Positions 27,782 to 45,776 of a DNA stretch of 64,000 nucleotides are shown piece by piece. The notes beneath the pieces were generated by a model. It worked only from the letters and a program-made list of their open reading frames with translations, searched no databases and was not told the origin of the DNA. The DNA is from Pseudoxanthomonas sp. PXM01 (lineage in GTDB: Bacteria; Pseudomonadota; Gammaproteobacteria; Xanthomonadales; Xanthomonadaceae): contig NZ_JACVAJ010000002.1 of assembly GCF_014851815.1 (NCBI RefSeq), positions 496,001 through 560,000 of the forward strand, read 5' to 3'. Each line of letters starts with the position of its first letter. The stretch's first letter is position 1. Position numbers and translations under genes: made by a program.

Positions 27782-28093
27782 TCAGGTCAGCTTGATCTGC
27801 ACGTCGACGCCAGCCGCGAGCTCGAGCTTCATCAGCGCGTCCACGGTCTTGTCGTTGGGATCGACGATGTCGAGCACGCGCTTGTGCGTGCGGGTTTCGT
27901 ACTGGTCACGCGCGTCCTTGTCGACGTGCGGGGAAACCAGGATGGTGTAGCGCTCGATCTTGGTCGGCAGCGGGATCGGGCCGCGCACTTGCGCGCCGGT
28001 CCGCTTGGCTGTCTCGACGATCTCGCTGGCCGAGCGGTCGATCAGACGATGATCGTACGCCTTGAGCCGGATTCGGATCTTTTGGTCCGCCAT
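27782..28093 (-). CDS. rpsJ: 30S ribosomal protein S10
   Basis: S10 (103 aa) is in the small-subunit head and is also NusE, the partner of NusB and NusG in transcription coupling. The product begins [19 protein letters not shown] and has [16 protein letters not shown] and the C-terminal [16 protein letters not shown]. The ATG at 28093 was chosen over a long upstream frame through the leader. It is the first gene of the S10 operon, with its promoter about 190 bp upstream. Confidence 0.98.
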
Positions 28094-28234
28094 GACGGAA
28101 ATTTCCTTCGTTAAAGAGCGACGGGCGCGGCCTCTGGGATGCCTTGCCCCGGTTAGTCCAAGCTGTTCCAGCCCCCCACCGACCGCGTGAACTCCACGGA
28201 CGGAAAGTGCCGGAATCGGCTGGGGATCTTCCTG

Positions 28235-28266
28235 AAAAACTAGGCAGGCCGGTAAACCGGCCCGCC
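28235..28266 (-). promoter_or_regulatory. S10 leader hairpin with U-tract (attenuator-like)
   Basis: Ten nt after the -10 box, the minus strand folds into a 10-bp stem (28257-28266 with 28243-28252, one G-U pair) with a TTTA loop. It is followed by TAGTTTTTC. By form it is a rho-independent terminator in the first ~35 nt of the S10 transcript. A near copy follows the rpsL promoter at 33042-33072. Confidence 0.7.
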
Positions 28267-28276
28267 CAGACATGAA

Positions 28277-28305
28277 AGTATAGGACGCGTGACGCACCCC
28301 GTCAA
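28277..28305 (-). promoter_or_regulatory. S10 operon promoter
   Basis: On the minus strand, -35 TTGACG (28300-28305), a 17-bp spacer and -10 TATACT (28277-28282) form a strong sigma-70-type promoter. The start of transcription should be near 28270. Confidence 0.85.
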
Positions 28306-28367
28306 CCACCGGGGCACCCCGCCCGACCCGAAGGCCTGCAGGAAGGCACGCGACACTCCGTGTCTGG

Positions 28368-28403
28368 CGAACACGAGGCACTTCCTGCACCTCTTTTCGC
28401 GGT
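28368..28403 (-). repeat. 36-bp hairpin element, S10 copy
   Basis: This element matches 33165-33200 at 31 of 36 positions. On the minus strand it forms GAGGTGC-AGGAA-GTGCCTC, where two changed bases are kept paired as G-U wobbles. It lies about 63 bp upstream of the S10 -35 box. Confidence 0.6.
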
Positions 28404-28541
28404 AGAACCAACGGCCTCCCAGGGGGCGCTGGCGGATCAAGCGATTCCTATCGGGCCAAGCGGCTTTCAAGGGGCGCGCATCATAGCGCATGTTTTGCCG
28501 TTTTGCAGCATTTCCACCCCATCACGGATGGATTTCTGCAA

Positions 28542-28571
28542 ACAAAAGGCGGACCGAGGTTCCGGTCCGCC
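28542..28571 (-). terminator. tufA terminator
   Basis: A 9-bp stem (28548-28556 with 28563-28571) and a 6-nt loop lie 41 bp past the tufA stop. The minus strand continues with TTTTGTTTGC. The same hairpin occurs after tufB but without the T-run. Confidence 0.85.
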
Positions 28572-32625: not shown

Positions 32626-33000
32626 TTAAGCCTTGGGACGCTTGGCGCCGTACTTGGAACGGCCCTGGCGACGCTTGGCGACGCCCGAGGCGTCGAGCGA
32701 GCCGCGCACGGTGTGGTAGCGCACGCCCGGCAGGTCCTTCACACGGCCGCCGCGCACGAGCACCACGGAGTGCTCCTGCAGGTTGTGGCCTTCACCGCCG
32801 ATGTAGCTGATGATTTCTTCCTGGTTGGTCAGGCGCACCTTGGCGACCTTGCGAAGCGCCGAGTTCGGCTTCTTCGGGGTGGTCGTATAGACACGGGTGC
32901 ACACGCCGCGACGCTGCGGGCAGTTGTCCAGCGCGGGCGACTGGCTCTTGTACGTGGGGGCCTGCCGCGGCTTGCGGACCAGCTGATTGACGGTTGCCAT
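32626..33000 (-). CDS. rpsL: 30S ribosomal protein S12
   Basis: S12 (124 aa) controls decoding accuracy. The segments [18 protein letters not shown] and [13 protein letters not shown] are intact. The lysines and proline that change in streptomycin-resistant mutants are wild type, so the sequence predicts streptomycin sensitivity at this locus. The ATG at 33000 (MATVNQL) is the family start. It is the first gene of the str operon. Confidence 0.98.
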
Positions 33001-33041
33001 AGTGGATTCTTCGTGTGAAGGCCGGAGCCTTGTTTGACATG

Positions 33042-33072
33042 AAAACGAAGGCAGGCCGTATGACGGCCCACC
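33042..33072 (-). promoter_or_regulatory. str leader hairpin with U-rich tail
   Basis: Exactly 10 nt after the -10 box, the minus strand forms a 10-bp stem (33063-33072 with 33050-33059, two G-U pairs) with a 3-nt loop, followed by TTCGTTTTC. Sequence, length and distance from the promoter match the S10 leader hairpin at 28235-28266. Confidence 0.7.
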
Positions 33073-33082
33073 TAGACGGAAA

Positions 33083-33112
33083 AGTATAGCCGGCAACCCG
33101 CCCGACCGTCAA
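33083..33112 (-). promoter_or_regulatory. str operon promoter
   Basis: On the minus strand, -35 TTGACG (33107-33112), an 18-bp spacer and -10 TATACT (33083-33088) precede rpsL by about 83 bp. Both boxes are identical to those of the S10 promoter. Confidence 0.85.
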
Positions 33113-33164
33113 CGCGACGGAGGTGGGTGCCTGCCAACTGACTGCGATCCCGCCCTTCCTGGGC

Positions 33165-33200
33165 CGAAAACGAGGCGCGTCCTGCGCCTCTTTTCGTGGT
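33165..33200 (-). terminator. rpoC terminator and 36-bp hairpin element, str copy
   Basis: A perfect 7-bp stem (33172-33178 with 33184-33190) with a 5-nt loop lies 45 bp past rpoC and is followed on the minus strand by GTTTTCGG. It should end the rplKAJL-rpoBC transcript. It is a 31/36 match to the element at 28368-28403 upstream of the S10 promoter. Confidence 0.75.
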
Positions 33201-33234: not shown

Positions 33235-37467
<4,233 letters not shown>

Positions 37468-45718: not shown

Positions 45719-45752
45719 ATCGATTTGCTACAACCTTCCCTTAGACGGCGAA

Positions 45753-45776
45753 GGCGGACCGAGGTTCCGGTCCGCC
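45753..45776 (-). other. tufB 3' hairpin without U-tract
   Basis: The same 9-bp stem as the tufA terminator is present, but the minus strand continues TTCGCCGTCTAAGG instead of TTTTGTTT. It is unlikely to terminate efficiently and may be a processing or read-through signal into tRNA-Trp. Confidence 0.65.

Follow-up and report, generated by a model that had tools for sequence, protein, structure and literature searches.

The str and S10 ribosomal protein operons of Pseudoxanthomonas sp. PXM01 carry corresponding regulatory elements in front of their first genes, which are read here, at a probability of about 0.5, as one control cassette consisting of a predicted strong sigma-70 promoter, an attenuator-like covarying hairpin ten nucleotides further on, and predicted RsmA/CsrA hairpins with GGA loops upstream of the promoter. 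The elements agree in position and in sequence plan at both operons and are conserved among relatives; the promoter-proximal hairpins covary and end in terminator-like tails, the loops of the upstream hairpins contain GGA, and the genome encodes an RsmA/CsrA protein.

Promoter and hairpin at str and S10

The window, i.e., the whole analyzed stretch of 64,000 nucleotides, carries on its minus strand rpoC (33235-37467), the str operon with rpsL, rpsG, fusA, and tuf, and then the S10 operon beginning with rpsJ. In front of rpsL (S12; 32626..33000, first gene of the str operon), a promoter is predicted by sequence match from the -35 hexamer TTGACG (33107..33112) and the -10 hexamer TATACT (33083..33088), which are 18 nt apart. 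Ten nucleotides (33082-33073) separate the -10 box from the hairpin GGTGGGCCG-TCATA-CGGCCTGCC (33050..33072), which was recognized from folding, covariation, and conservation and is followed by the U-rich, terminator-like tail TTCGTTTTCA (33038..33049). In front of rpsJ (S10/NusE; 27782..28093, first gene of the S10 operon), the sequence match again predicts TTGACG (28300..28305) and TATACT (28277..28282), here with a 17-nt spacer, and ten nucleotides (28276-28267) lead to the hairpin GGCGGGCCGG-TTTA-CCGGCCTGCC (28243..28266), which rests on folding and a covariance model and ends in the U-rich tail TAGTTTTTCAGG (28231..28242); all these features lie on the minus strand. A preliminary description of the str leader had already named the two boxes at both operons, the common gap of ten nucleotides, and stems of one sequence plan (GGYGGGCCG...CGGCCTGCC) with a U-rich tail, and all of this is borne out, the gap being exact in the window. 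Sites of the type TTGAC-N15-20-TATACT occur in the 64-kb window at str and S10 only, against 0.01 expected from shuffles, and the two hairpins reach folding z-scores of -3.6 and -3.8 with stem energies of -16.5 and -21.4 kcal/mol, respectively.

The terminator-like character of the hairpins was assessed by an intrinsic-terminator score d. The values are about 19 for str and 52 for S10, each as the best of four trims, compared to 45 for the untrimmed tufA terminator. At the genus level, the U tract of the str hairpin is interrupted (TTCGTTTTC). The first 10 nt past the stem contain 64% T versus 25% in whole leaders, and 111 of 125 untrimmed hairpins score as intrinsic terminators; since 74 on average still pass after shuffling of the tail letters, much of the score is supplied by the stem. 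All 31 rpsL leaders of the family contain a predicted intrinsic terminator (d>0) between promoter and start codon. Because of the T-rich tail and these scores, the hairpin is taken for a putative promoter-proximal attenuator. Indirect support comes from enteropathogenic E. coli, where northern blotting has verified that rpsL RNA has a premature 3' terminus which depends on growth phase and is seen in stationary phase, although the accessible part of that report does not state whether it lies in the leader (PMC10687069); the main text of a study on 3' ends in Pseudomonas does not mention rpsL (PMC8297930).

The promoter-proximal hairpin covaries as RNA. An alignment of 39 leaders combines 36 from both operons of the own family with three from rpsJ of family f12; 98.6% of its cells pair, changes on both sides occur in six of nine pairs, and none of 500 column shuffles reaches the number of cells changed on both sides. 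The corresponding values for 48 rpsL leaders from other families are 95.5% and six of ten pairs; here, 52 of 500 shuffles match the number of pairs with both-sided changes, while none match the number of cells (39 versus 11.7). Pairing falls to 27-52% when the arms are slid by one to three columns. The stems contain two G-U pairs at str and one at S10. The wobbles noted in the preliminary description fall at two pairs for which every one of the 47 distinct rows of other families has C-G and A-U, respectively.

A covariance model of the family hairpin, R2, has two strong matches, S10 and str; the class model R1 also matches ordinary 3'-end terminators. In the 4.18-Mb genome, R2 gives 57 bits for S10, 45 bits for str, and 22.7 bits for the tufA terminator in third place (150 of 5231 first-look candidates scored); since its training included sequences like these two and only that share of candidates was scored, the informative part is the gap to the third match. 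The next-best matches of R2 are the tufA terminator (28540-28571) and a corresponding hairpin behind the second tuf copy (45749-45776), which have GGGCGGACCGGAACCTCGGTCCGCC in common.

Model R1 was trained without family f1 and without any rpsJ leader, and also without seven called leaders of atypical appearance (G097, G065, G079, G155, G121, G105, and G172). Among the 114 class genomes searched, it finds an rpsL hit in 21 of the 83 outside training. In these, the 300 nt preceding rpsL contain each of the 13 hits at E<=1e-4, 17 of 20 at 1e-3, and 19 of 28 at 1e-2; eight hits with E of 0.0176-0.044, none of them located upstream of rpsL on its strand, are not part of this tally. Although trained on rpsL leaders of other families only, R1 recovers the rpsJ hairpin in six of 13 genus genomes at E<=1. 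It finds no match at E<=1 in the genome containing the window (150 of 3713 candidates scored), where its score is probably lowered by the G-U pairs of the family. Three other strong matches (G004 C13, G011, and G012) were rejected as modules, because each follows a likely stop codon and resembles an ordinary terminator by eye; such matches show that the hairpin alone is an unspecific mark.

The suggested comparison with ribosomal leader families yielded no fitting Rfam family at either leader, at gathering or loose thresholds. The family rpsL_pseudo (RF01773; gathering threshold 70 bits) has no match in the window or in 12 loci of relatives, and it matches none of 36 class genomes, but also none of 14 control genomes, so that this search had no positive control.

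Distribution of the module at rpsL and rpsJ

The spread of the module was followed with a uniform caller, which combines a sigma-70-like promoter, a hairpin 2-18 nt past the -10 box, and d>0, and was run on 182 rpsL leaders (G179 was excluded for its short leader). The module was called at rpsL in all 22 genomes of the genus and all nine from other genera of the family (31 of 31 for the family). The remaining families of the order gave 43 calls among 58 leaders, and the rest of the class 41 among 93; in this last set, every genome stands for a different family, and 52 leaders lack a called module at d>0. Reverse complements and 12 shuffles gave no call with d>0. The CAG/CTG core is present in 35 of the 41 called leaders from the rest of the class. 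Among 73 named leaders, 19 were called with d>0, some with hairpins of different sequence; the module was not called in most Burkholderiales, both Legionella, and Psychrobacter, and the caller missed Dyella, whose hairpin is visible by eye behind a weak -35 box. In E. coli K-12, a hairpin with a tail lies near the -10 box of rpsL, but its stem differs, and the gap measures 2 nt. The constant distance of ten nucleotides emphasized in the preliminary description persists as a gap of mostly 8-10 nt in the own family and several families of the order, but widens to 11-17 nt in much of the class and to 14-16 nt in family f8.

As many rpsL leaders across the class contain the module, the str hairpin is no special property of the str/S10 pair. 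The coordination of both operons by a common trans-acting factor or RNA-level mechanism, which had been suggested from the hairpins, is upheld in part: the two operons do share geometry and sequence, in a conserved and RNA-like manner, but this likeness does not in itself demonstrate a common factor.

At rpsJ, modules with positive scores are confined to a narrower group, occurring in 26 of 28 genomes of the own family (G090 is excluded because of masked letters at rpsJ) and three of five of family f12, whereas seven other families of the order, represented by 18 genomes, yielded none. In 16 of these 18 module-less genomes, rpsJ follows tuf at a distance of 20-234 nt, compared to 322-704 nt in f1 and 243-447 nt (in one case 3309 nt) in f12, so that the second copy appears to track a wide gap with a promoter of its own, with the exception of two f11 genomes with long gaps (385 and 467 nt) and no module. 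The caller finds no promoter-hairpin module in the rpsJ leader of E. coli. The stems of str and S10 share 16.0 of 18 positions within genomes and 15.6 between genomes, the within-genome value being reached by one of 2000 permutations from which relatedness was not removed; what added likeness the two hairpins show within genomes is slight and cannot be separated from relatedness.

GGA-loop hairpins upstream of both promoters

The preliminary description captured the promoter and hairpin half of the cassette, but overlooked hairpins with GGA loops located 5' of both promoters on the minus strand. At str, these are GAGGCGC-AGGAC-GCGCCTC (hairpin 1, 33172..33190) and GCCC-AGGAA-GGGC (hairpin 2, 33152..33164); at S10, they are GAGGTGC-AGGAA-GTGCCTC (hairpin 1, 28375..28393) and GACA-CGGAG-TGTC (hairpin 2, 28352..28364), the latter being weak and present in the minimum-energy fold, but not in the centroid. 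A hairpin of the pattern GAAAWGAGGNNCAGGANGNNCCTCGTNTTCG ends 59 nt 5' of the -35 box of str and 69 nt 5' of that of S10. With one mismatch allowed, this pattern has two sites in the genome, at str and S10 only, and is present in 24 of the 41 genomes searched, including this one. Mostly 5-10 nt further on, a second GGA-loop hairpin follows; with second stems of at least 3 counted, 40 of the 50 str regions from four families have one. Among rpsJ regions of f1 and f12, the count is 23 of 33 after removal of three wrong picks (G002, G047, and G070).

The stems of these hairpins differ completely between genera while GGA is kept, e.g., GGCCGGGCTggaaGGCCCGGCT, GGGGTacatggagGCCCC, and GAGGTGCacggacGCACCTC, or in the regions L097, L095, and L111. 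In the 50 str regions, taken from four families that were selected with the pattern already observed in them, a GGA-loop hairpin occurs in 47, compared to 18.3 in shuffles (largest 26) and 19 on the opposite strand, and GGA is the commonest loop triplet (41 regions). Tandem pairs within 25 nt and with stems of at least 4 occur in 35 of these regions, versus 2.2 in shuffles (largest 7) and none on the opposite strand. By family, such pairs are present in 30 of 31 regions of f1, two of two of f2, and three of seven of f3 (where one shuffle also gave three), as well as in one of two of f4, one of nine of f8, and one of ten of f9; f12 shows none in ten, with a single GGA hairpin in eight of them. 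Outside the order, tandem GGA pairs are not enriched (one of 93 regions; shuffles 2.2). Changes on both sides of the stem amount to 40 cells versus 11.8, to be read with the provisos that the rows of the underlying alignment A3 were chosen by a hairpin finder, which biases pairing toward structure, and that the pairs of the twin finder are canonical by construction. When 16 genus genomes were searched with R3, a model of the GGA pair, the top two matches fell at str and S10 in 14 of them (39-52 bits); most of these belonged to the training set, as did the two sites of the window, and neither gene was found in the other two genomes. The next match in the genome with the window scores 25.5 bits. 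R3 also finds the str region of f5, which was not used in training, with 44.7 bits.

These hairpins fit predicted RsmA/CsrA sites and represent the best candidate site for a common trans-acting factor. Two hairpins each at str and S10 of the window present GGA in the loop, two sites are near enough for one dimer in 35 of 50 str regions, and the genome contains one gene for RsmA/CsrA (PF02599, 92 bits, G000). Retention of the GGA loop while the stems change is a mark of RsmA/CsrA sites. CsrA most commonly acts at sites that overlap the ribosome binding site of its target gene; no such overlap is found in the window, where the hairpins begin 164-300 nt 5' of the start codons and upstream of the promoters. 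GGA-loop hairpins, generally paired, have been described as characteristic of CsrA dimer sites (PMC4333381), and the RsmX/Y/Z RNAs and the TwoAYGGAY family (RF01731) likewise expose GGA in loops of short, generally paired hairpins with covarying stems. The sites described here differ from known CsrA/RsmA sites in lying in the intergenic DNA between rpoC and rpsL and between tuf and rpsJ, 5' of the promoters, rather than at a ribosome binding site or in a known small RNA. Between positions 28000 and 33400 of the window, no match to TwoAYGGAY (RF01731) or Rsm families was obtained at E<=5.

Below-threshold TwoAYGGAY matches in relatives were observed only beside an interspersed element of ~110 nt (L241, G000 C4:111630-111756), with similar places in G001, G008, G012, G014, and G015 (L242-L248) and apparently several copies per genome. 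A long closing stem encloses two GGA-loop hairpins, which in L241 are GGCGCAC-AAGGAT-GTGCGCC and GGGGC-AGGAT-GCCCC; below-threshold RsmW matches overlap two of the copies, and the TwoAYGGAY matches adjoin two others. This element could be a multicopy RsmA-binding RNA.

Several further features were noticed in the S10 leader on the minus strand. Between the tufA terminator and the GGA hairpins (28490-28400), an additional conserved block contains CCCTGGGAGG between potentially pairing arms, perhaps forming a third GGA hairpin, and also a -10-like TATGAT with a GC-rich stretch behind it. This TATGAT (28480..28485), followed by GCGCGCCCC and lacking a good -35 box, was picked out by eye as a possible earlier S10 promoter 5' of the GGA hairpins; it was not called in a promoter scan of the leader, and similar stretches appear by eye in part of the genus. 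Another strongly conserved block, GGGGCAAGGCATCCCAGAGGCCGCGCCCGTCGCTCTTT (28150-28120), continues in the S10 leaders of the genus into a boxA-like site, CGCTCTTTAACG (28120-28109), immediately 5' of the Shine-Dalgarno sequence of rpsJ, variants of which are visible by eye in the leaders of the genus. A reading frame extends across the leader from 28240 to 28491.

Proposed mechanism, alternatives, and significance

On the reading as a control cassette, RNA polymerase would start about 3-4 nt before the hairpin, a fraction of the transcripts would stop in the U tract about 30 nt further on, and growth conditions would determine the fraction reading through. With the GGA hairpins on the 5' side of the promoter, RsmA could act only on RNA arriving from upstream, which may stem from rpoBC read-through or a start inside rpoC in the case of str, and from tuf read-through or an earlier promoter in the case of S10. 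In what is the least certain step, an RsmA dimer would clamp the GGA hairpins on this RNA and provide a common input to both operons, and the RsmA part is accordingly weaker than the attenuator part. The cassette may be ancestral at str, with the S10 copy arising when rpsJ acquired a separate promoter in this family and f12. In this manner, the cell could likely tune both operons together. The attenuator part has to face the fact that a hairpin so near the start leaves no room for an upstream antiterminator. Moreover, str and S10 need strong expression, and a terminator at the start of such operons demands efficient read-through. An extended version, in which RsmA/CsrA directly coordinates ribosome synthesis, with the twin GGA hairpins 5' of both promoters setting passage past the attenuator, the cassette being copied from str to S10 when the long operon was split, and the hairpin being an unrecognized conserved rpsL attenuator across Gammaproteobacteria with a counterpart in E. 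coli, is considered rather improbable in this full form.

The likeness of both operons might also reflect plain shared ancestry, the S10 control region being a copy of that of str and both copies now being independent. Copying without present coordination would alone account for the likeness and is a serious rival, also favored by the co-occurrence of both cassette halves at both operons and by a stem identity that is scarcely higher within genomes than between them; yet the GGA loops and the hairpin plan are kept at both places while the flanks diverge, which suggests a continuing common constraint, and the explanation is regarded as possible but on balance doubtful. A similar degree of doubt applies to the interpretation of the GGA hairpins as the terminators of rpoBC and tufA, or as binding a partner other than RsmA, such as a ribosomal protein or the anti-Shine-Dalgarno sequence. 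Hairpin 1 of str is indeed preceded by an A tract, followed by a T tract, and terminator-like in score on the plus strand, but a terminator needs no GGA loop, whereas GGA is the commonest triplet while the stems change completely, and the tufA terminator at S10 is a hairpin separate from the GGA hairpins.

The promoter-proximal hairpin, in turn, may protect both mRNAs, str and S10, against 5'-end-dependent decay in the manner of the ompA 5' stem-loop. The strong stems and the gap of mostly 8-10 nt, which predicts few unpaired nucleotides at the 5' end, would suit such a stabilizer, but the gaps of 11-17 nt in much of the class and of 14-16 nt in f8 would not, and the T-rich tail would be left unexplained, so that this role seems unlikely. 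Even less probable, by a wide margin, is a DNA operator, i.e., a dyad serving as transcription factor site just past the start. Its location, about +4 to +27, is one that a roadblock repressor could use, and the CAG and TG positions are invariant in alignment A1; however, many stems pair at some positions only by G-U, which breaks the DNA palindrome while keeping RNA pairing, and the T-rich tail is one-sided. The control cassette is preferred over these alternatives as the reading of the whole arrangement.

Parts of the cassette belong to known kinds of regulation. Attenuators in the rpsL leader, likewise terminator-like hairpins between promoter and rpsL, have been predicted in several genera including Xanthomonas and Pseudomonas, with no global feature being conserved (Naville and Gautheret 2010, PMC2965389); in contrast to that survey, whose accessible text describes no S10 case, one promoter-near hairpin plan is found here over much of the class and copied to S10. 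Premature termination at a leader hairpin controls the S10 operon of E. coli via L4 (PMC10931766), similar to the proposal made here, but the caller finds no module in that leader, and the S10 leader of the window matches no Rfam family. The boxA-like CGCTCTTTAACG fits the NusB/NusE autoregulation predicted from boxA sites 5' of rpsJ in three genera (PMC5725501); it is an element apart from the cassette and occurs at S10 only. As to RsmA, the Xanthomonas protein binds a GGA motif in the hrpG leader, and the same report stated that no rsmB homologues had been identified in Xanthomonas genomes (PMC3937308). RsmU of Xanthomonas campestris, an RsmA sponge that was described later, is derived from the 3'-UTR of XC1332 (ComEA), and was reported in Xanthomonas only (PMC7694677), is likewise a GGA-motif RNA located 3' of a coding gene in a relative, but differs by its locus. 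The accessible text of the literature searched contains no report of a module shared by str and S10, nor of RsmA/CsrA sites or control at either operon. While rpsL attenuators and CsrA sites are thus known kinds, a conserved attenuator-like hairpin of rpsL that reached a second ribosomal operon as a copy, accompanied by a predicted RsmA clamp site, would be new.

The coordination of many ribosomal protein operons beyond autogenous repression by single ribosomal proteins is only partly understood. Over much of the class, the rpsL hairpin retains both its sequence and its position, where a survey of many phyla reported no common feature, and the absence of the second copy from most relatives with rpsJ close behind tuf offers a natural genome comparison. 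If RsmA binds to the GGA hairpins, the Csr/Rsm system would directly reach the core translation machinery.
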